From a virus, in IMG/VR virus record IMGVR_UViG_3300029319_000107, positions 1 to 44,568 of that record: a stretch of 44,568 nucleotides of DNA. The stretch is one strand, 5' to 3'. Shown in pieces: positions 1,837 through 28,176 of the stretch. The notes below the pieces were generated by a model. The model did not search any database. It saw only the letters and a program-made list of their open reading frames with translations, and had not been told where the DNA came from. The stretch's first letter is position 1, and each line of letters starts with the position of its first letter. Position numbers and translations under genes: made by a program.

Positions 1837-1844
1837 CGGTGCCG

Positions 1845-2544: not shown

Positions 2545-2572
2545 GGTGGTGCGCTCCTTGACGCTGTGAAGA

Positions 2573-2604: not shown

Positions 2605-2605
2605 G

Positions 2606-2633: not shown

Positions 2634-2652
2634 CACCGAGGCCGAAGAATCC

Positions 2653-3248: not shown

Positions 3249-3513
3249 CCTCGTCCTCCTCCTCTGGGGCCTCGTAATTCGCCTCGAAGGCGTCCGTGCA
3301 TACGGCCGCTCCGTGGTCGTCCATGTAGTCCTGAAAAATGGCTTCGCTGTCGTTGTGGATCTGGTCCTTGAGTTCCTCTTCGATCGTGTCGGTTAGGCCC
3401 TCAGGCCACCCCGCAGCAGGCTTCTCGATGTTGAGCCGATCCGCGATCGCGTCGCAGAGTTCTTCCCCCTTCCCCCAGCAGAACAGGCGAAGGTCTGATT
3501 CGATATTCGTCAT
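3241..3513 (-). CDS. Early acidic protein, unknown function
   Basis: Encodes 90 residues beginning MTNIESDLRLFCWGKGEEL. The ATG at 3513 is preceded by CAAGGAGCCCGTTG and by promoter plus leader hairpin. The C terminus is strongly acidic (EAPEEEDEDA). It is first in the three-gene operon that continues to 2653. A small helical protein with an acidic tail could be a DNA-mimic or adaptor, but nothing in the sequence proves this. Confidence 0.65.
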   Translation of the reverse strand: MTNIESDLRLFCWGKGEELCDAIADRLNIEKPAAGWPEGLTDTIEEELKDQIHNDSEAIFQDYMDDHGAAVCTDAFEANYEAPEEEDEDA

Positions 3514-3532
3514 CAACGGGCTCCTTGATTTG

Positions 3533-3548
3533 CCGGGGCCATTCCCGG
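3533..3548 (-). promoter_or_regulatory. 5'-end leader hairpin, AATGGC loop
   Basis: On the minus strand CCGGG and CCCGG pair around AATGGC, 8 bases after the -10 element. AAGGAG follows six bases beyond the stem. Confidence 0.72.
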
Positions 3549-3556
3549 ACATGCAC

Positions 3557-3585
3557 AAGATAGCCGCCCCGTGCCTGGCTGTCAA
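3557..3585 (-). promoter_or_regulatory. Sigma70-like promoter
   Basis: On the minus strand TTGACA, a 17-base spacer and TATCTT. The -35 element abuts the T-tail of the preceding terminator. Confidence 0.82.
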
Positions 3586-3623
3586 CAAAAAGCCCCGGAC
3601 ACCCTGTGGGACGGGTGCCGGGG
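3586..3623 (-). terminator. Rho-independent terminator after gene at 3646-4020
   Basis: On the minus strand GGGTGTCCGGGG-type arms form an 11-bp GC stem with one bulge around an 8-base loop, followed by CTTTTTG. It ends the operon 4568-3646 and runs directly into the next promoter. Confidence 0.8.
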
Positions 3624-3645
3624 CCTGTCAAGGAGTGTCGTCGGT

Positions 3646-4020
3646 TCAGCAGTCCGCGGGGCCGACCTGCTCGTCTTCCTCGTCACGATCGAAGTGTGGG
3701 GCCAGCCGTCGAGCGTGCCCCTCGGCCATGACCAGCCCGGCCTCGTCGCCCTGCGCGATCGCGTCGGAGACGGTCCACAAAGAACCCGCCCAGTCGCGTG
3801 CGTTCTTCCCCTCGAACCACGCGCGACCCATTGCCGCCTGCTGGCACGCTGTGACAGAGACCAGCAGCCATTCGAGGCATTCGTCGATGTTGACCGGCCG
3901 CTCGCCGTCCTCGCCGTCAGGCGGGACATCGAGATGCTTCGCCACCTTTGGGTCGATGTCATCCGCGAGAAGCAGAACCACAGAGATCATTTCCCGGATC
4001 TTCTCCTCGTTGCTGGTCAT
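3646..4020 (-). CDS. Early protein sharing an IDEC motif with its neighbour
   Basis: Encodes 124 residues beginning MTSNEEKIREMISVVLLLAD. The start overlaps the upstream stop as ATGA (4020-4017). The segment PVNIDECLEWLLVSVTA resembles PFHIDECTNALYSVLHSA in the adjacent upstream protein, suggesting a shared small helical module. The C terminus is acidic with a single terminal Cys. Coupled to 4017-4568; no family is recognised. Confidence 0.7.
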   Translation of the reverse strand: MTSNEEKIREMISVVLLLADDIDPKVAKHLDVPPDGEDGERPVNIDECLEWLLVSVTACQQAAMGRAWFEGKNARDWAGSLWTVSDAIAQGDEAGLVMAEGHARRLAPHFDRDEEDEQVGPADC

Positions 4021-4568
4021 CGGCTCGCCTCCTGATCTCGAAACGCAGCGAGGCTCTTCTTGATCCGCCCCGCGATCCATTTCGCGATCTTCGCGTGTGC
4101 TTCGGGTTGGTGGGGATGCTCCTCCGTTGCGCTGTGAAGCACGGAGTAAAGAGCGTTCGTGCATTCGTCGATGTGGAACGGCTCTTCCGCTCCGACTTCG
4201 TCGGTCCGCGAAAACGCGATTGTCACGGACGTGGTGTTGTCCGCGCCCTCGTTGCGAAGTTGACACACAGTGAAATGCACGAGAATCGTGTATTCATCCT
4301 CGCTGTTGGTCGCGATAGCGAAGGGGAACGTGATCAGTTCTGCGATCGGCCCCGTCTCGCCCGCCCCGTGGGCGGGTTCGATCGCCTGAATTCGATCGAT
4401 GATTCCCTCGCAGAACATGCCCCCGAACGCGATCCGGAGAACACTGGAGAAGATCCTGTGGAACTGCCTTTGAGACTCGCTGGCCTTGCCGAGATCGTGA
4501 CTCATATCTCGGATGTGTTCGCTGTTGGTCCCGAGATGCCGTTCTTGTGTGTGCTTGATTCGCACCAT
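4017..4568 (-). CDS. Early protein, unknown function
   Basis: Encodes 183 residues beginning MVRIKHTQERHLGTNSEH. The ATG at 4568 has AAGGAG six bases upstream (CCCAAGGAGTACGAC); the longer upstream frame would include the leader hairpin and was rejected. The middle contains ITFPFAIATNSEDEYTILVH, a probable beta hairpin. A helical C-terminal part carries the IDEC motif shared with 3646-4020. It is the first gene of a two-gene operon transcribed away from the plus-strand operon at 4717. Confidence 0.72.
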   Translation of the reverse strand: MVRIKHTQERHLGTNSEHIRDMSHDLGKASESQRQFHRIFSSVLRIAFGGMFCEGIIDRIQAIEPAHGAGETGPIAELITFPFAIATNSEDEYTILVHFTVCQLRNEGADNTTSVTIAFSRTDEVGAEEPFHIDECTNALYSVLHSATEEHPHQPEAHAKIAKWIAGRIKKSLAAFRDQEASR

Positions 4569-9368: not shown

Positions 9369-9595
9369 CTCTCTCGGATCCAACGTGAAACGCGATTGCC
9401 ATCCACGTCAAATTCCGGGAGCCCGTCTGGATCGTAGATCCGGGCGGGTTTGTCAATATGGCCCTTGAACGCCTCGACCATCTGGTCAACCAGATCCACC
9501 ACCTTGACGCCGTCATCGGCAGCACGCTGCTGGAGGTAGGCGTAGGCTTCGTTGCGAATTCGAATGCTTGTAGTTGATGGTTTTCGTGCAGTCAT
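9365..9595 (-). CDS. Ribbon-helix-helix-like protein
   Basis: Encodes 76 residues. Residues 7-45 (TTSIRIRNEAYAYLQQRAAD then DGVKVVDLVDQMVEAF) show the Arc/CopG-type pattern: a short beta strand with alternating polar residues, helix, turn, helix. Such proteins bind DNA as dimers and usually act as repressors. The start overlaps the stop of the giant gene as ATGA, so it is translated after it. The last 25 residues (YDPDGLPEFDVDGNRVSRWI) are outside the RHH fold. Confidence 0.68.
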   Translation of the reverse strand: MTARKPSTTSIRIRNEAYAYLQQRAADDGVKVVDLVDQMVEAFKGHIDKPARIYDPDGLPEFDVDGNRVSRWIRES

Positions 9596-12500
9596 CGCCC
9601 AATTCCAATCGCTTCGTCAGTAAGAGACTCGGCAAACAACTTTTGCTCCGAAGGCGGCATTGACAGGAACCAGTTTCTTGCCACTGTGTCGTTTGCGTCT
9701 TTAAGTCGGCGAATCAGCAACCCAACGTTCCTGCTTTCCTTCATGTTGTCGATTCGACGCCGGACCATTTCAGCCGTGATTTCGAAACCGGGTTCTTGGT
9801 TGTACCTGACGAGCAAATCGACGCCTTCCTTGAGCTTTGCGTTTCCTTCTTCGAATCGGTTTTCCGCAATAAAATCGACTGCTTGCAAAAACGCCTTTGC
9901 CACATCGTTGACCATTTCGGCGTTCATTTCCGTAGCAGCGTTGAGGCTTTGGATGAACCCAGACTGCTTCATCCACGCGGTGTCTTCGAATCCAAGCACT
10001 CGCGACCACTGTGCAAGCGCGGACTGTGTGTAGTTGCGGTTGCCCATGCCGGACCGACGTGCCATATCGCCACGCAGAACCTTGTCGAGCTGATACAGCT
10101 GCCGAGTCATCGTCGTCATGTTCGCCACACGCTCAGGGAGCGGCAACGTCGAACGGTCTCGCATCGCTGCGTCATAAGTCTTGACGACACTCGAACCGGT
10201 AGGGCCAAGCACCACGTCGCCAATCACTTGGCCGAAAGCGTCCATGGCACCGTCGTATTGATACGGGGCTCGGATGGGGTAGGGGCTGAAACGTTCGGAC
10301 AAGCCGAACTCGCCGTTGGCGATGCCCGCAGTAATCCCGTAGGTCAACATATTCGACAAACGTTCGACGGTTTCGTCATCTTCGTCGCCGCCATATCCGA
10401 GCATCGCGGCCAACGTCCCGATGCCGCCAGTCATCAAGCCCGAGAACGTCTTGTACCCCGCGTATCTCGCGAGGGCACCTTGCACGGTCCTCGGAATCAC
10501 CGCGTTCAAGCCGCCGAACACAAGCACGCCCAGCATCATGCGCACCGGAGCAAGCAACGGTCCCTGCCCCGACACAGCGTCTCGCGTGGAGCCCGCCAAC
10601 AACGCGAGCCAACTAAGAGAGAAGCGTCGGTACTGGAAGATTGTCATGCCCAGCTTCGAGCGGTAAATCTTTGGCACCTCTGCCGCGTTGTACGTCATCT
10701 GCGTCAGCAGACGCAGCCGGTTGGCAGCAGCGGCTGCCGCTTGCTCTGAGTAACCAATGTTCGTGTAGTGGTAGAAACCGATCAGGAAGGCCGCGTTCTG
10801 GTTGAACTTTTCGACCAACGTAAAGAAGGCTGCGTCGTTGATCGCAGACATCACCTTCCGGGCACCTGAGACGATGGGCAGGGTTCCGTCGTCCCACTTG
10901 CCCCGACCCGTGAATCGTCCGTACTGCTCAAGAATCTGAGCAGAACGCTTCGGGTTTGCCAACGATTGAGCTGCGGCTCGGGTCGAAGCCACATAACCAA
11001 TCATGGAAGCCGTCACGGCCGGGATCTGCGTCGCATTGACAGCAGCACCGGCCACGTTCCCCGGCCAAGCAAGATTCACAAAGTAGTTCGCGGCCCGTGC
11101 GTAGTCCATGGCACGGTCGGCCATCTTTGGTTCGACGCGGCCACCCGTCAACACATTCAGCGTCTTGTCGAGAGCCTTGTTCATGACCTCGGTGACGCCG
11201 ACCATCGCCTGTCTTCCGTTCCAAAGGAAATCAAGCGTTGACTGAAGCTCTCGGGCTGCTCCGGGCGTAGACCCACGCATCGCCTCGATATCCTCTTGCA
11301 CCGTGCGGTTCGCGGCCGTCAACTCCCGCCAACGTTCGAATCCGACCACGCTCGACTGCCACACCTCGATGTAGTTCTTGGTGTAGCCACCCTTGCCTTC
11401 ACGCTTCATGAACGGCGCGTAGAACTTCTGGCGGTACTTCAGCTTGCCAATCTTGCCCCGGAGGGCCGCGGACACTTCCGCGGCCGAAGCCTTGGTGTAG
11501 TTCTTGATGTGCCGCTTGATGTCGTTGACCTGAGCCTCGGTCAGTCGAGCCACGTCGCCCGGGTACGAAATGACCGGTGTGATTTCTAGCTTGTCCTTCG
11601 GGTTGGCCTTAAGCCAGTCCCTGCCCGCACGAACAGCCTGAGCCTCCGTCTTGAAGCTGGCCTCAAGGTTGTAGTCGCCCTCAATGGGCTTCAGGCTTCC
11701 ATCTTCCATGACCTTGTTGACCATGAAGTTGCCGGTCCAAGCATGGAAGACATGGGCGTATCGATATCCGAAGCCTGCCGTCGGCACGGCCATGACCGCG
11801 AGTTGCTTCGCAGCCATCCCCGGACTCAGAAGCTTGCCATTTTGATCGTAGATTTCATCGTCGATCAACTCCCAAGCACGGCCCTCTTCGTTTGCTGCGG
11901 AAACCATTTCCGCCGGGGTGAACTGGCTAAACACCGCGATCTTCTGCTTCTGGATTGCACGGACCATTTCCTTCCGCATGTACTCGTCGCGGTTGCGGAA
12001 ATACTTGAAGGCGTCCTTGACCGAGTCAGGTGCCTCCATCAACATCTTGTAAGCCTTCTTCTTGTCCGCACCCCAACCGAGGGCCCGCTGTGTCGCAGCA
12101 GACAACTTGGGCTTGTCAACGACCCAAGGCTCAAGCGGATGGTCCATGATGAACATGAATCGGTTGTTCTTGTCGCGACGCCAATCCTTAGGCATCTTCT
12201 GCCAACGCTTGGAGTCACGCTTCAGGTTGACATCGATCTCCTTGGTGTAGTTGTCGTACGCATCACGCAAACGCTGTAGCGATCTTGCGTACAGCCCGTT
12301 TCCTCGGAAGATGATTTTCTCCATGAACAATCCGGGCTGGATGAAGTGAGCAAAACGCCCGCTCGGATCTCCCTTTCGAATCGTCATGTTCTTGGGAACA
12401 CGCGGGCGGGGGAGACGCACAAAACCACGGCGGTTTCGGTTCTGGCGACGCTTGCGTATGCGGTTCATCTTCTTGGCAAAGGCGTTCGACAACTTCGGAT

Positions 12501-15500
12501 CAATGATGACCCCGTCGCTCGCAACCAGCTCGCCCTCCTTCCCGACGGCCTTGTCAAAGGCATCCGCGTCCTTGACTCGAAGCCTTGACTTGAAGTGGGT
12601 GTTTACGATCGACAGAACGTCGGCAATGATCTTGCTCTTGCTGTTCGGGATCCGAATGACGGTCCGGCCAGCTGACGGAGAGTCGATAGTCAGGTTGTTC
12701 TCTTGTGCGATTTCGAGAAGCGGATCAATACGCTTTCCGGTCTTGATTTCGACAAGCACCTCTTCTTCAGTCGCGCTTGTCACCGCTACCGGAGACTTGG
12801 AATTCGGAAGCATCGCTTTGAATTCCGTGTACGTTCGATCATTCAAATGCTTGGCTGCATTCCTTGGCGGGATCGCAAGCTTGCCAGACCCAAAGTCGCC
12901 GGGCAAAGCGTCCGGAACACTAATGACTCGCTCGGTGTTGCCTTCGATGGTCGTGGCAAAAACGACCCGGCCAGCCTTGACGTCTTCGCTGTCGATTTCG
13001 GACATGGCACGGACAAGTTGTCCGCGAATCAAGAACAACAACTCTCGCCGTCCTGTCATGTCCTTTCCGACGGCCTCAGCGAATTCAGTCGAGGAAATCT
13101 CGAACGCAGGGCCAGCATACAAATCGACTTCGTTCGTCACCGTGTCGCCGTCTGGTTGGAATGCAGTACCAGAGAAGGTTCCGATTCCGATTTCATCGCC
13201 AGCGACGGTGATTTGCACGTTCTTGGAAGACAAGAAAAGCGGGTCACTCGGATCAGTGGTTTGCACCTTGAGGTCAACAATGACACCCGTCCCGGCAAGT
13301 TCCTCTTGCTTGCCCCGATAGATCGGGAAGGATCGGTTGTAAAGACCGCCAACGATGTCCTTCTTGGCCCAACCTTGCAGGCGATTAATGATCTTGTTGA
13401 TGCGAGCAAATTGTCTTGCGAACCCGGCCTTGGCTTTCTTCAAATCTTTCGCAGCAATGATTTGAGACTCTGAAGGGTTTGCGACCTTGCTGAGTTCATC
13501 TATCTTTCCTTGGGCCTCTCGCTCACGGTTCTTGAATTCATTTGCGAGGCTGCGCAATGCAAGCAAATAACGCCCTAGACGAGCCGCGTCCTTTTCCCAC
13601 TCACTCAGATAGCCACCCGTGTTGAGCTTGACAGCGTTTCCGTCCGCCCCCTTGCGGCCCTCCTGTTCTCCGTGGGCCTGATCCAAAGCCTCAAAGATCT
13701 CGGGCGGCTTCGGCGGCTTGGTCAGGACGTTGGCTTCGACTTGCGAAAGAACCACGGGGCCGTCGAACACACCGTCACCAATTTCGTCCAAGATTTCCAT
13801 CTCGGAAATCACGCGGAACTGCAAATCGCGAATTGGCGAGGCCATCGGGTTGATGCCTTGCTTCGTAAACGAGTCCATAATTTCGTCTACGCGCGATTCC
13901 AGATCGTTCATGATCGCGTTCTGTTGTTTAGTAGGCAGAATCACCATTCGGTTCAACACGTCCTTGACGTTGTCGCCAGCCTTCTCTGCCCTGCGAAGGC
14001 TGGGTTCGGCAAACTGCTTCAGCCCCATCTTTTCCATCAATGGTTCGTTGGCTTCTCCCCACTCGTGAGCCGCGATGTCTCCGACCAAGTGCGCAATATC
14101 TCGCACCTTGAAATCTACCGAACTCTTGCTTTCGGCCGTCGCGGAAGCGTTCAGGCTCTTCAGCTTCTTCGCCATCACCGCCATGATCTTCTGATCGTAC
14201 GGCGTGTTGACTGACAGCAGGGTGTACTTCGGCAGGACAGTCTGGCCGTACCGGTTGATTCGACCGAGCAACTGGATAAAACCGTTGACGTCGAGCAACG
14301 GCTGGACGATGAACAAGTGCCTCAGTCTCTCGCTGACGCCCTTTCTCGCATGGAAAGAGCCGCCAGTCGATCCAGAAGAGTTGACGACCACAAGCTGCGT
14401 GCGAGCGTTGTTGAAGTCATCGATGTTTTTGTTCTTGTTTGACTCCGCCTTTGTCCGCTTGGCGACCCGAACCATGGACGGATCGTTCGGATCCATCTCA
14501 ACCTTGTAGGTACGCGCCGTCACCTCGCCGGTCTTGATTCCCTTTTGGCGTGCGAACGCAAGGATGTAGTCAATCGGCATACCGGGCAGCTTCTTGAGGA
14601 CATCCATTTGAGGATCTTGGAGCTTTGCTTCAAGTTCTTGATAAGCGGGAAGCACGCCAGCTGCTGCCAATTCACTGTCTTCAAGATAGACAGTCGTCTT
14701 TTCGGCTGTCTCCGGATTCTCAAAACTCGCATACCGCAAACTTTCAAGCGTTTGTTGCGCCAATTCTGCCAGCGAGAATCGGAACTCCTGTCCAAGCTCG
14801 ATCTCGTTTTGTTCTATGAACCGTTCCAACGCCGCCTCGTTGGTCTGGTCCGTACCGACCAATACCAACTCGTTGTCGTTCAGAATGGCATCGGTCATGA
14901 TCGGTGCGGTCTGCACGGCCTTGAGCGAAGTCAAGAACTTCGTGGCGAGGTTGTACATCACGTTCGTGTACAGATCACTACCGGAGTTCACGTTCATCGC
15001 CTCGGACTGAACGCCTCTGCCTGCGAACACATCCTTGATTTGCTGACCCTTGCTCTCGAACATCTTCTTGACATCTTCGTTTCTTGCGAAAGAAAACATG
15101 TCGTTGAGGATCGAGGCAAACGCATCCATTTGCGCAGGTTCAACTTCGACCTGATTGGTTTCGAACGTGATCCCTTCAAAAGACTTCTGGCGACGCATGT
15201 AGTAGCCGCCCTCGGCCAACATCTGCGAGAACGCAGACATCATCGGCAATCCGCCGGTCTCGATCGTCTTGACAATGCTTTGCTGGCCGTCCTTGTCAAG
15301 GTGGCCAAGCCCAGCCTTCATGAATAGGTAAAGAGCGTCAGGCCGCTTGGCGAACGTGGCAGATGAGAAGACAGCCCCTGCCAACCTGCGGTCCGTCGTC
15401 AGACCGACCGTGAACAAACTCATGTGTTCCGCAGGCACCTTGGCGGCAAGGCCCGCCTCAAGCTTCTTTTCCGCGCGTTCGATTTCGGCAAGGTTGTTCT

Positions 15501-18500
15501 GACGTGCCGAATCCGTGCCAGCAGCCGCATGGGCCTCATCCATCACAAAGAACAATTTGCCAGTCGCAAGAATGCGATTAAGCAAATCCTGCCGAGGCAC
15601 TCCATCGTTGCCAGAAATCTGGCTGTACGTCAGAGCCATTCCCAGAAGGTTGGTCCCCTCTTCCGTAACGATCTGGCCGGTGTTCTCGAACCGGGCAACA
15701 AGGTCGTTCAATTGCCGAAGATGTTCCTTGACGCTCTTGGGCTTTTTGCGCCCAGCTCTCGGGAACTCTTCGCTCAGGCGAGGATCAACCTTGCCGGTCA
15801 ATTCATTCACCGGCCTGCCCACTTCGCTCACGCTCGTGTCGGTCGGCAACAACTCCAGCGGCACATCATCCATGCCTTCCGTAATGCTGGTGATATCGCG
15901 AAGCATGTCGCGATACAGATCCTTCTTGGCCGTGCCGAAGACTGGGAACAACCCCTTGCGGCGGGCATAGATAAGCATGGCCGCGACAAAACGCCCCTTG
16001 CCCACGCCCGTCTGGTCTCCAATCGTGAAGGCTTGGCCCTGCTCGTTCGCGTAGATCGCCGCGGCAATGGCATCGATCTGCTCGGCGTGGAACACCTTCG
16101 CGAGGTGGGGCAGCGTCATACCCAGCTTCTCGGCGACATATACCGTCAGCGGCTGCTTTACCTTCTCTTCGATTCGTTGAAGAGCGCGAATGTTGGCGTC
16201 TCTTTGATTGCGGGGGGCCAACGTTTCCGCGACGCCGATCTGGTCCTTGATGCTGTCCGGCGCGGACATCTGCGAGACCGGCGTGTACACAACCTGAATC
16301 TCGTCGGGGTCTACAAACTCAGGGTTGACCCTTTCGGCCGCGGTGGTTCGGTTCGGGTCTTCAAGCTTGACCGCCGTGTCGAAGTCCATCTCGGCTTCGC
16401 CGACGCCCTTCTTGCGGAACAGCAAGGAAGCCTTGGCCCAAGCCCGGTTAAAAGCCTCTGCCAATTCCTCGTCAATGTTCTCGACGACACCATCGTATGT
16501 GAGCTTGTCAATCAGGGCCTTGACGAAGTTGCGGAAGCTGGTGATGCCGTTTCGAATAGCCGAAGTAATGAACTTGACGGCCTTCTGAATCTCCTCTTCC
16601 GACGGGATGATTGCCACGCCTCGACGGTTGTTCTTCTTCTTCTTGCGGTTCTTGGCACCTGCAAGAAGATCATTGAGCATGTCGTCGTTTAGAGCAGATC
16701 GTCCTGCTCCATCAGGCTCTTGAAGAAGCCCAGACTCCCTCTTTCCAGCATCGTCATCTTCTCTGACTTGCTCAGTGGCTGGGCGGGTTGTTCCCTGCTG
16801 GCTCTCTCCGACGCTGGTTCCAGTGTCAGGATCGACATAATTCGAATTGCCGTCCGTGGGCTTTCCGCCGGGGGTGACCCGTACTTCGTCAGCTCCTCGT
16901 TCAGCAGTTCCAACTCCACCGGGCTCTGTCGTTGGGCTTCGGCCAAGGTCGAGTCCAGTGCCTCTTGAAACACGCTCGGCTCGAACGTTTTTCCTTCCGG
17001 GTACAGAACTAAAGGAGCCCCCGACAAGTCGTTCAAGACGCCGTTGAAGGTTAATCTTCTTTGCACCGTAGTTCTCCGAGTATTCTCGCATGGCCTTGTC
17101 AATGCTTTCCGCACTGTCAAGGATCTGGGGAAGCTCACCGTTCATCAGGTCAGGGGCGACCTTGCCCTTGGGTCGGATGAGCCGCTTCTTCTTGTCGGTC
17201 TTCTGGACGACGATGACATCGACCGGGAAGGTCGTGCCCGTCGCCTTGTAAAGCTTCCCGGCCATCGTGTAATGACCGAGGACGTTGTGGCTGTACAGGG
17301 CCTTGAAGATGCCTCGCTGGTAAGCCTTCTTCCGGGCTTCTTCCGTAAGCGTCGGCCCGCCGGGCGCACCGATGATGAAGACGCCAATGCCGAGGTCAGG
17401 CAACTCAGTCAAAGCCTTGCCGATTACCACGTCTTCGACGTTGTTTGTCTCAAAGGTGACGGGCGAACGACTTGACTCGGGCAAGTGATCCTTGTTGACG
17501 CCAATCGGCACCTTCACAAAGGTGTCTGCGTTCTTGGGCGGCTTGCCGAATGGCGGGTTGGCAATCACATGGGTGTTGGAACTGCCGAGGTTGAGGCCGA
17601 TGTTTCCCTTAAGCGTGTTTCCTGTACTAAGCAATAAAGAACCAAGGCTCGCGCTACGAAACACCTGCGATGCCATAGCCCTAGCTGGATCAATTTCTCC
17701 CCCGTGTACGTCTGCGCCGCCTAGCAGCGAGACAAGTGATCCTGTGCCGTATTGCGGCTCGACGATCGTAGAAAGCATGTCGCCAAACTTGGCTGAACCT
17801 TGAAAGCCGAGCAACTGCGCAAACGCGGCGATTTGCGGCGGAGTGGAGAACTGCTGCCCAAGCATTCGCGTCTTCTTGGTCGCGACGTTGCTAAAAGCAT
17901 CTTCAACCTCACGGGCCGCTTTCAACACCGCAAGAGGCCCAAAGTCGCTCGGGAGTCCTCTGTCGGTCTGCTTCGTGCCTTCGGCCACCAGCTTTGCTAC
18001 ACGCGCACGAACCATCTCATTCATTGCTCGTTCGAGAACGATCTCAACAAGCTTCTGGTTCTGTAGCGTCCTGTCTGCGCCGTCTGGAGTTTTGCCCCGC
18101 TTGCCGCCATCGACGGCTTCCCTGTAAATGTCGTCGATGGTGAGTCTGGGATATTCCTTCTTGCCGCCCTCAGACCGGTTCGTAATTCGCGTGTGGAACA
18201 ACTGCAACGCACGCTCGAAGACGCCGTCAAGCCGCCACATCTCTTCTGGGCTTACCACCGTGCCGACCTGAGCCATATCGGCTTCAGTGTCCCTGTTCAA
18301 AATCCTTGACACGAGACCGGCAAAGATGTTGTTTAGAGCATCTCTGGGGTTCTTCACATCTGCTTCTGTAATCGAAAGCGGTAGTGCTGCGATGCCTTCG
18401 GGCGTTTGCAACAGCGCGTACGGCCGTCGCGTGTACTCGCCGGTTGTGTCTGCAAACGCAGTCAATTGAAGACGCATTTTGCTTCTGCGAGATGGCTCTT

Positions 18501-21500
18501 GCACTTGCAAGTAAATGTCGTGCGGGCTTATGCTGCCGGTTCTGTGTTTGTGAAGAACGTCAGCAAGTTGGCTTTCTGTCAAGTTGCTGTCGAAGCGGTC
18601 TCCCGCCTTCAAAATGCGGAATGTCGAAACGACGGGTTCGTCGATCTCCGCTTCTTCTGCGACGTGAGCCTCTTGCTCGGCTACCGGAGCCTCTTCAACC
18701 ATCTCCTCTGATCGCTTGCGTCCGTTTACCTCGCTGAGGAAAGCGTCGAGCTTTTCGCCACCCATGGTGAAAGCGGCAAGGGCCGCTTCCTGTGTGGCCT
18801 CGTCAAGCTCGTCGATGCGGTCGGGAAGGTTGTCGGCAGTGAAAGGCTCGACCTCTGGCTCATCATCGGGAGGCTGTACGCCGCCCACCTCGGGTGCTGG
18901 CCCAGCAAAAATCAAACCGTTTCGTTCGTGTGCCTTGCCCTGCGAAACCAGATCACTCAGAACTTGCTGAATAAGATCAGCGTCGTAGTTCTTCGTTTCT
19001 TGCAAAACGTCTGCGAGATCCTGAAAACTTACGCCTTCTTCATAGACCTGAAGCTCCTCTTCCATTCGCTGGCTGAGTTCTTTGTAAAGCTTTTCGTTGG
19101 CGTCTTCCTCCTTGGCCTGATCGCGTTCAAGATTTTGTGCGGCCCGCGCCTGCTCTTCGGTAGACGGGGCCTGTCTTGTGCGTTCAGGGTTGGCTGCGGT
19201 CGCTGGGGCTCTTTCACCTGCAAGCTGCAAAGTCGGCGCGTTAGCAGACTCCAACACCTGATTCATCGCATCAATCAATTCCTGCGGGAGACTTGCCAAC
19301 AAGCCGCCGTCTTGCGGCGGCTTTGTGCGAAAACCCTCTTCAACAGCATCGTCGGCAACACTAAATACGTCTGCCCAAGCTTCTTCAGCTGGGTTTCCAT
19401 GATCCATGTTTGGCGTGACAACGCCGGATTTGGCAAGTGCATTTTCCCAGATTGCTTTTTGCTCTGGAGTCAAAGCCTTCCAAATCCCGTGAGCGATTTC
19501 GTGCCTCACGGTTATGATGATTTTCTGCAAAACCTGAGTCGGCTTCATAACGCTCAAGGATTGCAGGTTTATGTTGTTGATTGAGAGGGCATATTCAACA
19601 ATCTTGCCCGCACGCTTCGCCACCGTGACAGCCGCTTGCGCAAATGCAAAGCCAGTCCTGCCACCCTCAATATTGATTTTTGCGCCTTCTTCTCTATTCA
19701 CCGGCAAGAAATTGATGTACTGCAACCTCAGCCAGCTAGGCAAAGCGGCAGCAATGACCTGCGCAAGAGTGCGTCGGTCGCCTGAATCGAGACGCCCGTC
19801 TTCAATTTTCTCTTCGATCTCGTCTACGGTCTCCGACTGATCTTGCTCATCTTGGACCTCGGGCGCGGGTTCCGTTTGGGGAGCAGCCTCGGTCTCCGTC
19901 GCAGCCGCAGCCTCGGTCTCAGGCGCAGGCGCAGCCTCGGTTTCAGGCGCGGCCTGAGGCGAGGCAGTCGGGAATTCCAATTCCGCAATAACTTCAGCTT
20001 TTTCTTCAAGTGCTTGAGTTACGGCTTTCCGCTCTGATTCCGAAAGATCAAGCGCACGAAGCATCTGACGAAGTCTGCGTGTTGGCAACCTCATCAAGTT
20101 TTCATTTTTGAAGACTTCTTCTCTACTACCGTAAAAAACTAGCTCATCTTCGAGTGTGATTTCGGCTTGAGCTTCGTCCTCTTCGGGATCAATTGCAGCC
20201 CGTTGCAACTCTTCGTCAGTCCCCTCCAACACTTCTTTCTTGCGTTCGTCCTTCCTGCGTTCGTTCTCTGCTTGTTCACGAGGATCGCGTGCAAGAGGAT
20301 CGGGCGCAGCCTCGGGGGCGGCTTCGGGCTCGGCCTCCTCTTCGGTTTCTGGAGTAACTTCGGGCGCGGCCTCGGGCGTTGCGGCAGCTTCGGGCTCCGC
20401 AGCAGGCTGGGCCTGTTCGACGAAATTGGCAAAGATTTGCGCTGATTCTTCCGGCTTAATGTCGGGAAGCGATGCAAGTGCAGCCGTAAGTTCTTCGAAT
20501 TCATTGGTATCGAGTCCACGCAAAATGGGCCCAACGTTATCCGAATCAATTCCAAGCACCAATATCGCCATGTCGCGGGCGTTTCCAAGCGCAATTTCGT
20601 TTGCAACACGCTCGACAACACCCTGCTCATCATTAACAACAAGCTGATTTACTTGATCGACGTTGGGGTCAACATCAACAGCAGGATCGGCCGCAGGATC
20701 CGTTTCGGTGCCAGTAGCTTCAGTTTCCGCCGTTGCAGCATCGCTGTTGTTGTGTTGATCCCACGCCTTAGCAACGGCTTGCCTGAAAGCATGGCGTTGG
20801 GCTGCGTTGGTTTGAACTCCCGGCGCAATGAAATTTGCGACTTGCCTGCGACTAGTGGTTTCGCCCGGAGCCTTGACAAAAGCGTCAATGATTGCGCCGA
20901 GATTCGGGTCTTGAACAAACCTTGCAATTACTTCAGGATTCGTAAGATCCTCAACGCTGTTAAAGAAATAATCGCCATCTGCCTTTTGACCCCCAAACCT
21001 AACAGTGCTTGGGATGCTTTGCCTAGGTCTGGCCGACGAAGCATTGCCAGCTTGAACACCAAAAGCATTTGCAATTCCGCCCGGCGCGGAAGCACCTCCG
21101 CCAATAAGACCGCCTACCACTGCCGAAACAATGGCTTCATTTGAAGTCATAGAAGCAACTTGGCGTTGCCAAATAGATCCTTCTTCTTCAGTCATCAAAC
21201 CAAGGTTGTAACGCTCAATTCCTTGGCTCAACGTTTCTGCTTGGTACTGAAGCCACTCAGTAGTAGCTTCATTTGCAGAAGCCGTTCCTGTTGTGCGCGC
21301 AAATCGCCCAAGGCCCGCAATGAGAGTCCGCGACAATTCTCTCTTGATGACTTGCTCACGGCCCGGAAGCAATGGGAACATTGCCTTGCGAATGGAGTCG
21401 TAACCAAACTTCTCAAGCAAACCAGCGGTTAGACCATAAGCCAAGGCGTGTCCATACGCGGTTTGTGCTGCAACCTCTGGGTCTACGCCCTGACGAATCA

Positions 21501-22932
21501 ATTCGTTGTAATCGTGCGCAAAGTACAAACCACCTTCCATGGAGGCGGCAAACGTAATCATTGGCGCAGATTCTCGCAGCCAACCTGCCAACTTTGCTCC
21601 TCGGCCGGTGCCAACAACAGCACCCATTCGAGTGGCTTGAGTACCTCTTGAAAAAGTCTGCAAAGCCGTTCCGCCGACCATGAAAGTCAGCAAAGAACCC
21701 ACACCCTGACCAACGTTTTTAAACCAATTCGTCAGCCCAGAAACCGTAGTGGGATCAATTGAATCCGGGTCGTAAAGCGTCCTTGCGCTTTGCCCTGCCT
21801 GACCCATCATTTCAATTTGATGGTCAGCGTCGTTTGCAAACGCATACAAAACATCAGCGAACCGAGCATAGTCGTCTGCAAATGAACCAGCCGCAGCCAA
21901 TGGGTTATCGAGCATGTCCCCGATGAGGTAATCCGGGAGCATGATGGCGTGCGCCATCGTTCGGGCAGCAAATGAACCAGCCGCAACCAAACCCCGTTCG
22001 AAACCGGTTTTGATTGAGCCTGCACCATCAGTCGCAGCGTCAACAACCCAACCCCAACCTTCCGCAACATCTGCTTCCATCAACTTGTTGTGCAAATACG
22101 CAAACGCAGTCTTTTGATTGTCTGGGACGTGTTCGTAGTTGTTGGGGTTAGCAAAAAACGCCTTGAGTTGCAGACCCCATTCGCCTGCTTCGTCTTGCCT
22201 TTGCAGGCCAATGCGAATTTGCGGCAAGATGCCCGTAGTCAAAAGCTCCCGATTGTCGCGAGCAGTTTGAATTCGAGTTTCGTCAATTAGGGCGTCTTTG
22301 TTTCTTGCAGGATCGCTGTACCCAAAATCCGAAACCGCAGCCGTAAAAACCTGTTCGCTAAGCATCGTCCTGAAATCTTCAGGCGACATTCTTGTGCGAA
22401 GGTCTTCGAGTCCTGCTCTGGCTTGCGCATCCAAAGAACCAATCATGCTTTGATAAATAGCACTCATGGCTGGGCGATTAGAGGGGTCTCTAGCGTCTCT
22501 TGTTTGAATTGGGCTTACAGGGAAACGGACTTCTGAAGGAACTGCGCTTGGAAGCCCTCTTTGTCGTCGTTCAAATTCTTGCTGCATCGTCAAAGGACGT
22601 GCAGGCGGCGCAATTCCGGGAAGAACACCTTCGCCGACACCTTCAATGCCGTATGTTTCTTGAAACGTGCCCCCGATAGCTTCGCGTACATCTGCGTGAT
22701 GCGCGCCAAGCTCGCCAAACCCTTCCCCCGGACCAACGTCTGCAAGACCCATCTCGGCAGGGATTTCAAGCCAATCAAACGCTGTAGGCCGCTCGAAAGA
22801 CCCCGCTGCTTGCTCCCCGTATTCGGCAAGGGTTTGTGGCTGTTGTTCCACTTCACTAGTACGCGAAGCGTCGTCTTGCGTTTTAGCAATTGCACGTCCC
22901 ACAGGAGTCATGCCGAATCCCATAATGCCCAT
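9592..22932 (-). CDS. Giant polyvalent protein: protease motif, N6-methylase, Sno-type helicase
   Basis: About 4446 residues (ATG at 22932; a TTG two codons earlier is possible). Seen: Gly-rich hydrophobic stretch near 600-625; Ala/Glu/Pro repeats near 845-880 and 985-1030; zincin motif HEIAH at 1144-1148 followed by EEAW; N6-adenine methyltransferase with EPQYGTGS at 1725 and NPPF at 1792-1795; basic KNRKKKKNNRR near 2095; strawberry-notch-like SF2 helicase with GDQTGVGKGR at 2305-2314, DEAH at 2465-2468 and QLLGRINRYGQ at 2887-2897; basic patch near 3500; hydrophobic, probably membrane-associated C-terminal region about 3940-4150. Methylase plus helicase resembles DarB-type anti-restriction and other polyvalent proteins injected with phage DNA. 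Such proteins are thought to protect or process incoming DNA; here that role is inferred. A tape-measure role is unlikely because enzymatic domains dominate. Confidence 0.88.
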   Translation of the reverse strand: MGIMGFGMTPVGRAIAKTQDDASRTSEVEQQPQTLAEYGEQAAGSFERPTAFDWLEIPAEMGLADVGPGEGFGELGAHHADVREAIGGTFQETYGIEGVGEGVLPGIAPPARPLTMQQEFERRQRGLPSAVPSEVRFPVSPIQTRDARDPSNRPAMSAIYQSMIGSLDAQARAGLEDLRTRMSPEDFRTMLSEQVFTAAVSDFGYSDPARNKDALIDETRIQTARDNRELLTTGILPQIRIGLQRQDEAGEWGLQLKAFFANPNNYEHVPDNQKTAFAYLHNKLMEADVAEGWGWVVDAATDGAGSIKTGFERGLVAAGSFAARTMAHAIMLPDYLIGDMLDNPLAAAGSFADDYARFADVLYAFANDADHQIEMMGQAGQSARTLYDPDSIDPTTVSGLTNWFKNVGQGVGSLLTFMVGGTALQTFSRGTQATRMGAVVGTGRGAKLAGWLRESAPMITFAASMEGGLYFAHDYNELIRQGVDPEVAAQTAYGHALAYGLTAGLLEKFGYDSIRKAMFPLLPGREQVIKRELSRTLIAGLGRFARTTGTASANEATTEWLQYQAETLSQGIERYNLGLMTEEEGSIWQRQVASMTSNEAIVSAVVGGLIGGGASAPGGIANAFGVQAGNASSARPRQSIPSTVRFGGQKADGDYFFNSVEDLTNPEVIARFVQDPNLGAIIDAFVKAPGETTSRRQVANFIAPGVQTNAAQRHAFRQAVAKAWDQHNNSDAATAETEATGTETDPAADPAVDVDPNVDQVNQLVVNDEQGVVERVANEIALGNARDMAILVLGIDSDNVGPILRGLDTNEFEELTAALASLPDIKPEESAQIFANFVEQAQPAAEPEAAATPEAAPEVTPETEEEAEPEAAPEAAPDPLARDPREQAENERRKDERKKEVLEGTDEELQRAAIDPEEDEAQAEITLEDELVFYGSREEVFKNENLMRLPTRRLRQMLRALDLSESERKAVTQALEEKAEVIAELEFPTASPQAAPETEAAPAPETEAAAATETEAAPQTEPAPEVQDEQDQSETVDEIEEKIEDGRLDSGDRRTLAQVIAAALPSWLRLQYINFLPVNREEGAKINIEGGRTGFAFAQAAVTVAKRAGKIVEYALSINNINLQSLSVMKPTQVLQKIIITVRHEIAHGIWKALTPEQKAIWENALAKSGVVTPNMDHGNPAEEAWADVFSVADDAVEEGFRTKPPQDGGLLASLPQELIDAMNQVLESANAPTLQLAGERAPATAANPERTRQAPSTEEQARAAQNLERDQAKEEDANEKLYKELSQRMEEELQVYEEGVSFQDLADVLQETKNYDADLIQQVLSDLVSQGKAHERNGLIFAGPAPEVGGVQPPDDEPEVEPFTADNLPDRIDELDEATQEAALAAFTMGGEKLDAFLSEVNGRKRSEEMVEEAPVAEQEAHVAEEAEIDEPVVSTFRILKAGDRFDSNLTESQLADVLHKHRTGSISPHDIYLQVQEPSRRSKMRLQLTAFADTTGEYTRRPYALLQTPEGIAALPLSITEADVKNPRDALNNIFAGLVSRILNRDTEADMAQVGTVVSPEEMWRLDGVFERALQLFHTRITNRSEGGKKEYPRLTIDDIYREAVDGGKRGKTPDGADRTLQNQKLVEIVLERAMNEMVRARVAKLVAEGTKQTDRGLPSDFGPLAVLKAAREVEDAFSNVATKKTRMLGQQFSTPPQIAAFAQLLGFQGSAKFGDMLSTIVEPQYGTGSLVSLLGGADVHGGEIDPARAMASQVFRSASLGSLLLSTGNTLKGNIGLNLGSSNTHVIANPPFGKPPKNADTFVKVPIGVNKDHLPESSRSPVTFETNNVEDVVIGKALTELPDLGIGVFIIGAPGGPTLTEEARKKAYQRGIFKALYSHNVLGHYTMAGKLYKATGTTFPVDVIVVQKTDKKKRLIRPKGKVAPDLMNGELPQILDSAESIDKAMREYSENYGAKKINLQRRLERLVGGSFSSVPGRKNVRAERVSRGTGLDLGRSPTTEPGGVGTAERGADEVRVTPGGKPTDGNSNYVDPDTGTSVGESQQGTTRPATEQVREDDDAGKRESGLLQEPDGAGRSALNDDMLNDLLAGAKNRKKKKNNRRGVAIIPSEEEIQKAVKFITSAIRNGITSFRNFVKALIDKLTYDGVVENIDEELAEAFNRAWAKASLLFRKKGVGEAEMDFDTAVKLEDPNRTTAAERVNPEFVDPDEIQVVYTPVSQMSAPDSIKDQIGVAETLAPRNQRDANIRALQRIEEKVKQPLTVYVAEKLGMTLPHLAKVFHAEQIDAIAAAIYANEQGQAFTIGDQTGVGKGRFVAAMLIYARRKGLFPVFGTAKKDLYRDMLRDITSITEGMDDVPLELLPTDTSVSEVGRPVNELTGKVDPRLSEEFPRAGRKKPKSVKEHLRQLNDLVARFENTGQIVTEEGTNLLGMALTYSQISGNDGVPRQDLLNRILATGKLFFVMDEAHAAAGTDSARQNNLAEIERAEKKLEAGLAAKVPAEHMSLFTVGLTTDRRLAGAVFSSATFAKRPDALYLFMKAGLGHLDKDGQQSIVKTIETGGLPMMSAFSQMLAEGGYYMRRQKSFEGITFETNQVEVEPAQMDAFASILNDMFSFARNEDVKKMFESKGQQIKDVFAGRGVQSEAMNVNSGSDLYTNVMYNLATKFLTSLKAVQTAPIMTDAILNDNELVLVGTDQTNEAALERFIEQNEIELGQEFRFSLAELAQQTLESLRYASFENPETAEKTTVYLEDSELAAAGVLPAYQELEAKLQDPQMDVLKKLPGMPIDYILAFARQKGIKTGEVTARTYKVEMDPNDPSMVRVAKRTKAESNKNKNIDDFNNARTQLVVVNSSGSTGGSFHARKGVSERLRHLFIVQPLLDVNGFIQLLGRINRYGQTVLPKYTLLSVNTPYDQKIMAVMAKKLKSLNASATAESKSSVDFKVRDIAHLVGDIAAHEWGEANEPLMEKMGLKQFAEPSLRRAEKAGDNVKDVLNRMVILPTKQQNAIMNDLESRVDEIMDSFTKQGINPMASPIRDLQFRVISEMEILDEIGDGVFDGPVVLSQVEANVLTKPPKPPEIFEALDQAHGEQEGRKGADGNAVKLNTGGYLSEWEKDAARLGRYLLALRSLANEFKNREREAQGKIDELSKVANPSESQIIAAKDLKKAKAGFARQFARINKIINRLQGWAKKDIVGGLYNRSFPIYRGKQEELAGTGVIVDLKVQTTDPSDPLFLSSKNVQITVAGDEIGIGTFSGTAFQPDGDTVTNEVDLYAGPAFEISSTEFAEAVGKDMTGRRELLFLIRGQLVRAMSEIDSEDVKAGRVVFATTIEGNTERVISVPDALPGDFGSGKLAIPPRNAAKHLNDRTYTEFKAMLPNSKSPVAVTSATEEEVLVEIKTGKRIDPLLEIAQENNLTIDSPSAGRTVIRIPNSKSKIIADVLSIVNTHFKSRLRVKDADAFDKAVGKEGELVASDGVIIDPKLSNAFAKKMNRIRKRRQNRNRRGFVRLPRPRVPKNMTIRKGDPSGRFAHFIQPGLFMEKIIFRGNGLYARSLQRLRDAYDNYTKEIDVNLKRDSKRWQKMPKDWRRDKNNRFMFIMDHPLEPWVVDKPKLSAATQRALGWGADKKKAYKMLMEAPDSVKDAFKYFRNRDEYMRKEMVRAIQKQKIAVFSQFTPAEMVSAANEEGRAWELIDDEIYDQNGKLLSPGMAAKQLAVMAVPTAGFGYRYAHVFHAWTGNFMVNKVMEDGSLKPIEGDYNLEASFKTEAQAVRAGRDWLKANPKDKLEITPVISYPGDVARLTEAQVNDIKRHIKNYTKASAAEVSAALRGKIGKLKYRQKFYAPFMKREGKGGYTKNYIEVWQSSVVGFERWRELTAANRTVQEDIEAMRGSTPGAARELQSTLDFLWNGRQAMVGVTEVMNKALDKTLNVLTGGRVEPKMADRAMDYARAANYFVNLAWPGNVAGAAVNATQIPAVTASMIGYVASTRAAAQSLANPKRSAQILEQYGRFTGRGKWDDGTLPIVSGARKVMSAINDAAFFTLVEKFNQNAAFLIGFYHYTNIGYSEQAAAAAANRLRLLTQMTYNAAEVPKIYRSKLGMTIFQYRRFSLSWLALLAGSTRDAVSGQGPLLAPVRMMLGVLVFGGLNAVIPRTVQGALARYAGYKTFSGLMTGGIGTLAAMLGYGGDEDDETVERLSNMLTYGITAGIANGEFGLSERFSPYPIRAPYQYDGAMDAFGQVIGDVVLGPTGSSVVKTYDAAMRDRSTLPLPERVANMTTMTRQLYQLDKVLRGDMARRSGMGNRNYTQSALAQWSRVLGFEDTAWMKQSGFIQSLNAATEMNAEMVNDVAKAFLQAVDFIAENRFEEGNAKLKEGVDLLVRYNQEPGFEITAEMVRRRIDNMKESRNVGLLIRRLKDANDTVARNWFLSMPPSEQKLFAESLTDEAIGIGR

Positions 22933-22934: not shown

Positions 22935-25286
22935 TCAACTAGCCCCGTTAGATGCGAAAGGGTCCATTGCCTCTAGACCGTCAGAATCAGAATCGGAAGT
23001 TTCATTTGAAACGGGTTGTTCAAGCGTTGGACCTGAACCGTTCCCGCTTGTTCTTTCAGAAATTTCCCTAACACCTGCCCGGCCCTTGCCAACAACCTTG
23101 ATTTTGTTGTCTGGCATTAGCTGGTAAAAGACCCCGTTTTCAAACCCGGCTTCGTCCATCTTTGTCGGATGTTTGTGCGATTCGTCAGGAACGAAAAAGT
23201 ATTGGACTTCTGGAGCGTTTCGGTTGTGGTCTCTAAACGACGTTACGTTCCAAACGTCTCGTACCTTGACGACAACTGTTCCCCGTTCTTGTCTTTCAAA
23301 ATCAGCTTCGGGGCTTAGATCGTTTTCTTTGTGGCTCAAATCGGGCAGCAAAAATCCCGAAAACTGTCTTTCGCCAGTTTCGTGTTCATAAGTCCAAAGA
23401 ACGCGATGACTGGTTGGATCACCCGGAGTGGTTGTCAAATTAAAACCGCTTGGGTGCGGGGTTTTAATTGCTTCTGTGGGTCCTGTTGAAACAGGTTCAG
23501 CTTGTCCTGCCGGGCCTGAAACAGCCGTTGGATCTCCATCGGTTACAGGAGCCTGCCCTTCTTGCTGAACACTTGGCCCAACTATTCCAAGTGACCGCCT
23601 TCTTTGTTCTTCTTCCCATTCTCTTGCTTGGGCGTATTGAGCCGCAGTCAAGCCTTGTTGCCGTTGTTCTTCTACGAGAATCGAGGCAATAATGTCCCTT
23701 CCGGCTTGGTCAATGTCAGCGACTGGCTCCAAACCTACGCCTGTGTCTATCAACAAAGACTTGGTCTGAGGGTGGACGTAGGCGTAGTAAATTCGACGAA
23801 GCCTAGCAGCTTCAGAAACTTGTCTGCCACGAATAGTCCTTGCTTCTGTTGCTAGACGCCTTGCTTCGACTTGTGCTGCGCGTTCCGCTGCTGCTTCTGC
23901 GCGAATAGCTGATGCACGCTTTTGCTCTTCGTGTCGGCTTGCATCTTGAGCAATTCCGTAAAGCAAACGGCCTCGTTCGGAAGCTACAGCCGCAGCAACT
24001 TGCGGAGCTTGTCTAGCACTAACGCTAGGGTCTCGAAGATTAGGGTCCAATTCGTTGAGACGCTGACGAACAGAGTCAGTAATAAGACCCGCTCCCTCGG
24101 CGTATTCAAGTAGTTCGTCGTCTGCTTGCGGATTGGCCGCCATAGCGTTTGAAAAATCTTCTTCAGACATACCGCCTTCGCCCGTAACGTTGGGAAAAGA
24201 AAACCCGTCTGAAGTAGTAAACGTTGTTCCGTCAGGACTTACTGATTCTCGCAGAGAATCGGGCAAAGGCCCGCTGGGAGCAGTGCGACCAAGTGATGTG
24301 CCACTTTCATACGCGGGAGCAGTGCTTACACCACTGCCCGGCCTTCCTCTGTTGGAAGTAAGAAACCCGCCTCCGCGCGCAGAACCGACGTGGCCGGTTT
24401 GAAAACGATACGGTCGGCTATCTCTTCTTCCCGAACCACGGTTCCTATCAGCAGAAAAATTAGGAAACAAAATTCGGGCAATGTTGTCTCGAATTCTTCG
24501 GTCGTCGTAATTCGCAGGTTTGCCCGCATCAAGGGCGTCTTGAATCCTCTTGTTGTATTCCGCGTACCTTTCTTCCAGAATTCTTCTGGAATGTTCATCC
24601 ATCCCCATTTCTGTACTTACGAAACCCCCCCCATATTCGTCGTCCTGTCTTCCTTGCCCCGGCGGCCTACCAAAATCCAAATCAGACATACGGTGTCGAG
24701 CAAACAAAGCTCGCGCTGCTTGATCTGTAATTTCATAACCGGGCAATTCCCCTCGTTTGGCAGCCTCGAATTGGCGTCTTCCTTCTGCGCTCAAACCATC
24801 GGGGTCTTCAAGCTTGTAGACCAATACACCGTTGTTGTCGTAAACAGAACCGTCAGGACCATGAAAAAGTTCAAACGGCTCTCTGTTTTCACCCCCTACA
24901 CGACTTCGGCCCCCGGGCAAAGGGTCAGTTTGATCTAGTTCAAGCAAATAATTTCTGAGTTCTGCTTGAATTCGTGCGTCGGTTATGGGGCCTGATGGGT
25001 GTACAGGAAGAGTTCCTGTTGCAAACTCTTGTTCCGCTTGTTCGCGAAAAGGGTCAACGTCAAATTCATAACGCGGAGGAGTACGCTCAAGATCGCGGCT
25101 TTGCCTTCCGCCACGTTCGTCAAATAAGCGAGTAGCTTCGTTACTGATATTCATGTGATCGGGCGTACCGCCGTGCGCAAACGGATGACCAGTCTCAGGA
25201 TTGATCAAACTTTGGGGGGCGTTAGGATCAAACGGACGACCCGTACGAGGATCAATTGGAAATTCGTCTTGCGCTCGCTTAGCCAT
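22935..25286 (-). CDS. Putative internal virion/ejection protein
   Basis: Encodes 783 residues. The N terminus carries two copies of a short motif (DPRTGRPFDP and NPETGHPFAH). Most of the chain is low-complexity, Gly/Arg/Glu/Pro-rich and probably disordered. A long Ala/Arg/Glu helix near 430-490 is a likely coiled coil, followed by an ordered patch (YYAYVHPQTKSLLIDTGVGL) and a beta-rich C terminus (HRVLWTYEHETGERQFSGFL). GAGGC lies before the ATG. It sits directly upstream of the giant gene, with the two ends nearly touching. Role as internal virion protein is inferred from composition and position; no family is recognised. Confidence 0.7.
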   Translation of the reverse strand: MAKRAQDEFPIDPRTGRPFDPNAPQSLINPETGHPFAHGGTPDHMNISNEATRLFDERGGRQSRDLERTPPRYEFDVDPFREQAEQEFATGTLPVHPSGPITDARIQAELRNYLLELDQTDPLPGGRSRVGGENREPFELFHGPDGSVYDNNGVLVYKLEDPDGLSAEGRRQFEAAKRGELPGYEITDQAARALFARHRMSDLDFGRPPGQGRQDDEYGGGFVSTEMGMDEHSRRILEERYAEYNKRIQDALDAGKPANYDDRRIRDNIARILFPNFSADRNRGSGRRDSRPYRFQTGHVGSARGGGFLTSNRGRPGSGVSTAPAYESGTSLGRTAPSGPLPDSLRESVSPDGTTFTTSDGFSFPNVTGEGGMSEEDFSNAMAANPQADDELLEYAEGAGLITDSVRQRLNELDPNLRDPSVSARQAPQVAAAVASERGRLLYGIAQDASRHEEQKRASAIRAEAAAERAAQVEARRLATEARTIRGRQVSEAARLRRIYYAYVHPQTKSLLIDTGVGLEPVADIDQAGRDIIASILVEEQRQQGLTAAQYAQAREWEEEQRRRSLGIVGPSVQQEGQAPVTDGDPTAVSGPAGQAEPVSTGPTEAIKTPHPSGFNLTTTPGDPTSHRVLWTYEHETGERQFSGFLLPDLSHKENDLSPEADFERQERGTVVVKVRDVWNVTSFRDHNRNAPEVQYFFVPDESHKHPTKMDEAGFENGVFYQLMPDNKIKVVGKGRAGVREISERTSGNGSGPTLEQPVSNETSDSDSDGLEAMDPFASNGAS

Positions 25287-26682: not shown

Positions 26683-26939
26683 CAGTGATCCTTAGTTGGG
26701 AATGCTTTGTTCAAAGCTGCCCTTCGTTTGCCACAATTGCACTTCTTGCCCGTCTTATTCATTAAGACTTCAGCTGCCCGTTTAAGACCTGTCTTGGCTG
26801 CAATTCTATCGATTCGATCCCCTACGCCACGAATAGGCCCAGAATAACTGTTACAAGACGCGCAATCGTTTTCTGACGGTTTGGAATTAAACAGGCCAAG
26901 AGTGCAAAAAGAACCAGCTTTGTTTGTGCAATCAGACAT
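26682..26939 (-). CDS. Small cysteine-rich protein of tail module
   Basis: Encodes 85 residues beginning MSDCTNKAGSFCTLGLFNSK. The ATG at 26939 overlaps the upstream stop (ATGTCTGA); the longer frame reads back into the upstream gene and was not used. Seven Cys residues occur, including CASC and the C-terminal KKCNCGKRRAALNKAFP. The pattern suggests a metal-binding or disulfide-linked small protein. No function is known. Confidence 0.72.
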   Translation of the reverse strand: MSDCTNKAGSFCTLGLFNSKPSENDCASCNSYSGPIRGVGDRIDRIAAKTGLKRAAEVLMNKTGKKCNCGKRRAALNKAFPTKDH

Positions 26940-28176
26940 TATTGGGCCAATCAGAAGGCGAGGGCAAACTTGTGAGCAATTCGTGCCTTGTAAGCACAAA
27001 CGCGCCACCAATTGTCGATTCATGCAAACCTCGCCTGTTGAACGGTCCTTTAGGCGCAGCCGAACTCGGGAAGCCACTATCAATTGAAAACAGGCAAGAC
27101 ACGTCTGAGTCGTTGCAATTGGCAGACGCAGATTGTTCGTGGTTAAACTCGTTTACAACAAACGGCCCGCTTGTAAACAACATCCCATTGCACGCTCCTG
27201 TGTACAACTCACCGAGAAAATTAATCGTCTCGACAGGTTCTCTGAATCCATATGCAAACAACGTTTCTCCGGGATGGATCATCCCTACGCAACGGTGGGG
27301 GGTAGATGGCGGAATGCAATTAGCCGGGTTGCCACTCACTCCGCTGACGTACAAAATGCTGGCAGGCCGTGGGCGATTTTGAGGGCAACTATCGTTGCTA
27401 TTCGGGCTGATAAACGCAAAGCGTTTCCATTGCTGCCCATCTGTGCGGTTCACTTCATTACTGGTGCTTTGGCTGTAATTCAAATTCGGCGGAAAGAAGT
27501 CTTCGCAATCCCCAGTATTGTTGTTGAAGCGGTCCTCTCTTTTGTAAGAAGAAATCGACTCATTGATTTCCATCAATTGAGTGAACAGCAAGTTCAACTC
27601 AAAAGTTTCGTAGCAACCTTCGTCAATAAGGTGCGAACACTGAGCAAACCCAGAAACTCCTGCGGGACAACTAACGTATTCCGCAGTCCTGACCAGATTG
27701 AAATCAATTACAACAGGATCTTCTCGGTCAGACGTTTGTTCTTCTATGAACCGCGAATTTCGACTCTCGTCGTCAAGACAAAGACTAAAACAAGAAACTC
27801 TCGTGTTTGAGTTTTCACTCGTTATTGAACCTTCGCGGCCTGCGAACAAAGAAGTTGCCGAAGGATACAAAGGGTTACTATCTAAATACCTTTGCGGCGC
27901 GCTCGGATCTTGCTGAAGCAAAGCTTTAAACCTTACTGTTGCAAATTTTGCTCCGCTTGTGTTTCTGCTTTTTTCTTCTAGCTCATCAAATGGTTCTTGC
28001 GGGTCGCAAATTGCGCAATGAATTTCTTTTGTTGATGATTCTTCTCGCAAACCGTGCATAGACACACGAGCTTCGCCTTCCACCACAATCGCTACTGGCC
28101 CGCAACCGCCTTGGCCCGCGGGGTCAAGGCAAGGCAATCCTTCTTGCTGGCAACAACAGCCTATGTAAGCGTTCAT
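26932..28176 (-). CDS. Cysteine-rich tail-region protein
   Basis: Encodes 414 residues with an unusually high Cys content spread over the whole chain, from MNAYIGCCCQQEGLPC at the start through HCAICDP, CFSLCLDDE and GFAQCSHLIDEGCYE to ANCNDSDVSCLF near the end. ATGA coupling to the upstream gene. Dense, regularly spread Cys suggests many disulfides in an extracellular virion part, or structural zinc sites. It could be a tail fibre or spike component, but no family is recognised. Confidence 0.72.
   Translation of the reverse strand: MNAYIGCCCQQEGLPCLDPAGQGGCGPVAIVVEGEARVSMHGLREESSTKEIHCAICDPQEPFDELEEKSRNTSGAKFATVRFKALLQQDPSAPQRYLDSNPLYPSATSLFAGREGSITSENSNTRVSCFSLCLDDESRNSRFIEEQTSDREDPVVIDFNLVRTAEYVSCPAGVSGFAQCSHLIDEGCYETFELNLLFTQLMEINESISSYKREDRFNNNTGDCEDFFPPNLNYSQSTSNEVNRTDGQQWKRFAFISPNSNDSCPQNRPRPASILYVSGVSGNPANCIPPSTPHRCVGMIHPGETLFAYGFREPVETINFLGELYTGACNGMLFTSGPFVVNEFNHEQSASANCNDSDVSCLFSIDSGFPSSAAPKGPFNRRGLHESTIGGAFVLTRHELLTSLPSPSDWPNNV

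Follow-up and report, generated by a model that had tools for sequence, protein, structure and literature searches.

The analysed window is the entire virus record of 44,568 bases (44.6 kb), and its late genes lie on the minus strand in the order terminase large subunit (TerL), portal, capsid, small virion-like genes, a 783-aa protein and a giant gene. TerL (41454–43190, minus) was matched by phrog_2 (E 1e-15), the portal protein (39676–41460, minus) is SU10-like (PF23899 at E 4e-7, just under the cut-off, and phrog_332 at E 2e-5), and the major capsid protein (34875–35930, minus) is of podovirus type, passing the cut-off of the NCBI podovirus model NF033394 with E 2e-38. The giant gene (9592–22932, minus; 4,446 aa) closes the virion module, since the genes after it are a 76-aa ORF, an AAA_24 ATPase and a RusA resolvase. 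A nucleotide search of phage records with the window matched nothing, and the collections searched held no near relative of the phage. The phage, a podophage (short-tailed), is distant from known ones: its terminase shares only about 23% identity with the top matches listed, and the portal had no match in phage records. Among the virion genes is a calcineurin-like phosphoesterase (33097–34026, minus; phrog_7339, E 6e-9), and the late module also encodes a cysteine-rich 414-aa protein with no family match (26932–28176, minus). A very Lys/Arg-rich 87-aa ORF (38491–38754, minus) sits between the portal and an Mtd_N-type fibre gene. The left end of the record (1–4000) carries small ORFs and has a GC content of 65–69%, compared to about 50% in the structural region.

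The giant gene runs from an ATG at 22932 to a stop codon at 9592–9594, although a TTG two codons upstream (22938) could serve as an alternative start to give 4,448 aa. A reading made earlier from the sequence only had described an unbroken frame of 4446 codons filling about 30% of the window, strand unstated; we confirmed this frame on the minus strand, where it takes up 13,341 of the 44,568 bases (29.9%). Chance cannot account for an open frame of such length, and homology is found along the giant. Third-position GC climbs from 0.41 to about 0.75 along the gene, with the early part near the 0.39 of the upstream gene, which makes a mosaic origin possible. The directly upstream gene encodes the 783-aa protein (22935–25286, minus), a candidate partner of the giant. 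Only two bases separate its stop codon from the giant start codon, which suggests that the two genes are translationally coupled. The 783-aa protein matched no family and none of the upstream proteins of relatives of the giant. In some of these relatives, the corresponding position is taken by a virion structural or ejection protein. For none of the neighbouring proteins in the window was a relative seen next to the homologous giants of viral loci.

Enzymatic core and internal domains of the giant protein

The motifs named in the sequence-only reading were all located in the giant: HEIAH at residue 1144, EPQYGTGS at 1725, NPPF at 1792, GDQTGVGKGR at 2305, DEAH at 2465 and QLLGRINRYGQ at 2887. 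We predict a gamma-class N6-adenine methylase at residues 1690–1915 (17188–17865; this and all following coordinates are on the minus strand), based on alignment with relatives over the QQFSTP, EPQYGTG and NPPF motifs. The methylase profile weakly finds the METTL5/PH1948 structures (E ~2e-4). Residues 2235–3085 (13678–16230) are predicted to form a strawberry-notch-type SNF2 helicase, matching Pfam AAA_34 (E 8e-14) and Helicase_C_4 (E 5e-17), the strawberry-notch pair, both of which pass the curated cut-offs. A post-helicase segment at residues 3060–3341 (12910–13755) is common to the family (hhalign E 3e-10, P 97%), and its controls fail.

The giant aligns over its methylase and helicase with Bacteroides phage BS-TP4 gp3 and with a protein of an Acinetobacter element. 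A search with the alignment of these three proteins returned 160 relatives, 80 from viral and 80 from genome loci, many of which are single chains of 3,300–6,500 aa; when the core of this one protein served as query, viral contigs yielded no relative. The sequence-only reading had named the loss of catalytic residues in homologues as evidence against it, and no such loss was seen: NPP[F/Y/W], GxGKGR and DE[S/A]H are retained in nearly all of the ~160 core relatives. Among the families seen in genes next to these relatives are portal, terminase, major head and DNA ejection. A tree built from 83 cores shows the giant as a lone long branch of unsure placement, with a nearest identity of 30%. Cyanobacterial contigs hold many shorter methylase-helicase relatives of approximately 1,650–2,830 aa, with several per strain.

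A zincin-like metallopeptidase is predicted at residues 1051–1200 (19333–19782), which aligned to the MPTase segments of relatives with E 6e-6 in hhalign. The domain contains HEIAH at 1144–1148 and, based on the alignment, a putative third ligand within EEAWAD at 1183–1188; about 0.03 HExxH motifs would be expected by chance in the giant chain. Because the profile was anchored on HExxH, the test was repeated with shuffles that kept HEIAH as well as with other HExxH proteins, and all of these controls scored E 0.01 or worse. The assignment is thus supported by sequence comparison beyond the bare HExxH motif. The low-confidence structure model (mean pLDDT 59) consists of a helix, three strands, the HExxH helix and a Glu helix, an order in agreement with the zincin core of PMC5512222, and a Foldseek search of the PDB with this model gave no match. 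In most relatives that have an HExxH it follows the helicase, whereas in the giant it precedes the methylase.

The region before the core also contains a predicted FliG_N-like helical domain at residues 783–843 (20404–20586; Pfam PF14842, 36.1 bits against a cut-off of 25, E 1e-8), for which four scrambled or reversed controls fail; the same region scored E 2e-4 with TIGR00207 fliG, under the cut-off. Residues 844–1035 (19828–20403) are mostly Ala/Glu/Pro-rich linkers (~845–885 and ~985–1035) around a charged stretch. By composition these linkers are probably disordered, and the second includes three copies of a 24-bp tandem repeat. A possible winged helix lies at residues 1290–1345 (18898–19065; Pfam GMT-wHTH E 0.004, under the cut-off). 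The pre-methylase region had no match in relatives, and residues 1420–1700, the place of LPD36 in the DarB-type dyad, matched nothing in relatives or Pfam. An N4-type virion RNA polymerase was considered and rejected (vRNAP_dom E 0.89, 10.3 bits against a cut-off of 27). The linkers had been noted before, as had two basic patches, which we place at residues ~2093–2104 and ~3488–3516. A hydrophobic C-terminal region held up less well, with a single 19-residue window (4128–4146) exceeding a mean Kyte-Doolittle value of 1.6.

Modules at the two ends

Good candidates for new domains had been seen in the first 1,100 and the last 1,500 residues. Our profile comparisons indicate instead that the unnamed ends are largely not new, as residues 403–622 and 3549–4213 match known modules and the post-helicase segment belongs to the family. 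Along the whole chain, the searches assigned no domain to residues 1–402, 850–1040, 1200–1680, 1916–2230 and 3350–3550. The N-terminal module (residues 403–622; 21067–21726) is common to giant phage proteins (hhalign against 15 relatives, E 2e-8, P 95%). It carries the motif E-x-x-T/Q-E-x-x-Q, present in the giant as EATTEWLQ at 555. The C-terminal module (residues 3549–4213; 10294–12288) is of the LPD39/LPD38/PLxRFG “tail-700” type and was detected with a profile built from 10 relatives (hhalign E 3e-9, P 96%). For both modules, reversed, shuffled and other-region controls from the giant all fail. LPD39 is present in each of the five Pfam-tested relatives of the C-terminal profile (E <1e-49). 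The giant itself has no direct Pfam match to LPD38 or LPD39, so the LPD39 link runs through its relatives, and NCBIfam NF032893 (“PLxRFG/tail-700”) matches residues 4025–4124 at E 1.9e-5, under the cut-off. The cluster of the giant's C-terminal module connects to the LPD38 cluster, which includes Lessievirus BcepIL02, at E 2e-5 without the giant and 8e-19 with it; the giant directly against the LPD38 cluster gives an insignificant E 0.035, so that this connection is strong only through intermediates. The PLxRFG motif is not kept, with PTAGFG at the aligned place. Searches of phages with both ends (tblastn) found nothing, and the structure model of the C-terminus was unusable (mean pLDDT 48).

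Giants that differ in helicase family share the two end modules, which makes these candidate packaging or ejection signals. This sharing also fits a protein that is mainly structural or serves ejection. Its end modules would then form a periplasmic conduit or an internal body of the virion, with the methylase-helicase as a passenger whose task is to pump or pull DNA in, not to block restriction. The giant occupies the slot of podophage ejection proteins, the neighbours of its relatives include DNA-ejection families, and family searches recognised no separate ejection protein in the window. However, a pump would have no need of the methylase catalytic motifs, which are retained, and we regard such a role as unlikely, if worth keeping in view.

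Comparison with known giant phage proteins

The nearest known parallels include the DarB-like proteins of Lessievirus (Bcep22-type), such as BcepIL02 gp70 (4,667 aa) and JC1 gp69 (4,515 aa), which are similar in size to the giant. Gene order in this group, taken from BcepIL02 and BcepMigl, is TerL, portal, MCP, fibres, virion protein and giant, with gp70 last as in our phage, and the methylase likewise comes before the helicase. BcepIL02 gp70 also shares the N-terminal module, its residues 470–689 matching the profile at E 2e-9, and has an LPD38-type module at the C-terminus. Conversely, gp70 gives no long BLAST match and lacks end-to-end similarity to the giant, and its helicase belongs to another SNF2 family (GAGKT/DEFH). 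In the Lessievirus giants HExxH lies after the core rather than before it, and they differ further from this giant in that a Pfam search of the latter recognised no lytic transglycosylase. The giant likely works like the Lessievirus DarB-like proteins but, given its different helicase family and the lack of end-to-end similarity, is not a close member of the group.

BS-TP4 gp3 (5,391 aa) has a homologous methylase and strawberry-notch-type helicase at ~26% identity, an LPD38 C-terminus and a gene position beside the portal. It is ~950 aa longer than the giant, and its putative zincin (HEAVAH, of HExxxH form) follows the helicase. P1 DarB has a methylase-helicase dyad as in the giant (PMC5512222), but at ~250 kDa it is half the size; this likeness is drawn from the literature, not from sequence, and packaging of DarB needs partner Dar proteins. 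Besides JC1, comparable giants have been described in Atu_ph08 (4,877 aa; PMC6630229) and Parlo (3,764 aa; PMC6606913).

Polyvalent proteins (Iyer et al. 2017, PMC5512222) likewise are single chains, encoded next to virion genes, that unite peptidase, methylase and helicase domains with modules of LPD type. The giant has several unrelated enzyme domains in its chain, a zincin-like metallopeptidase, adjoining virion genes and the DarB-type dyad of a gamma-class N6-adenine methylase followed by an SNF2-type helicase. It differs in its extra FliG_N-like domain, its zincin-methylase-helicase order and the very long branch that it forms among the cores in the tree. The DarB-type or polyvalent interpretation first drawn from the zincin, methylase and helicase motifs is therefore supported by the domain profiles. 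By these comparisons, the giant is a distant new member of the known DarB-like/polyvalent giants, and what appears distinctive is its zincin-first order, FliG_N-like domain and divergence.

Proposed role of the giant protein

JC1 gp69, a homologue of BcepIL02 gp70, yielded 51 unique peptides from CsCl-purified virions (PMC9144972), and P1 DarB sits in the head, capsid targeting requiring no more than its first 30 residues (PMC9024508). Together with the gene order and the end modules described above, the presence of these relatives in virions makes packaging and ejection of the giant likely. Alternatively, the giant could be a late enzyme that stays in the infected cell, methylating progeny DNA or remodelling host DNA. 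Methylase-helicase relatives of ~1,500–2,500 aa do occur in cyanobacterial and Bacteroidota genome contigs, where a virion role is needless, but these stop soon after the core, whereas the giant carries the end modules of giants, one such homologue being found in virions; we consider this explanation improbable. An anti-phage defence gene or assembly artefact, suggested only by the large size and the rise in third-position GC, is scarcely credible given that no PADLOC model matched (a defence system was rejected on this basis), that one continuous frame shows intermittent homology between residues 403 and 4213, and that the gene order is the same as in Lessievirus phages.

We therefore favour a virion-packaged DarB-like polyvalent protein, which is probably ejected with the DNA, possibly self-cleaved, and whose helicase-methylase would shield the DNA from restriction. 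The domains, their conservation, the gene position and the shared end modules are direct observations. The giant would be made late in infection and loaded into the podophage head by its N-terminal module, its C-terminal module or both, to be ejected later together with the DNA or just before it. The zincin may then cut the chain at the disordered linkers, freeing the methylase-helicase core. In the mechanism proposed for polyvalent proteins, the helicase moves along injected DNA with the methylase in tow, and zincins act in processing of the chain (PMC5512222). Here, the SNF2-type helicase would translocate on incoming double-stranded DNA with the fused methylase, which would mark adenines or occupy the DNA and so keep host restriction enzymes from cutting it. 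Packaging and ejection are deduced from relatives; self-cleavage, the order of events and the anti-restriction role of this particular giant are inferences.

A more speculative and rather doubtful extension is that the chain is a self-processing cargo whose end modules represent a common “load and eject” chassis for interchangeable enzyme cores in unrelated podophages, which here would deliver the FliG_N-like and pre-methylase (1200–1680) domains with new anti-host activities. More broadly, this giant extends the DarB-like proteins to a podophage lacking near relatives in the collections searched, and its end modules recur across giants that carry different helicases.
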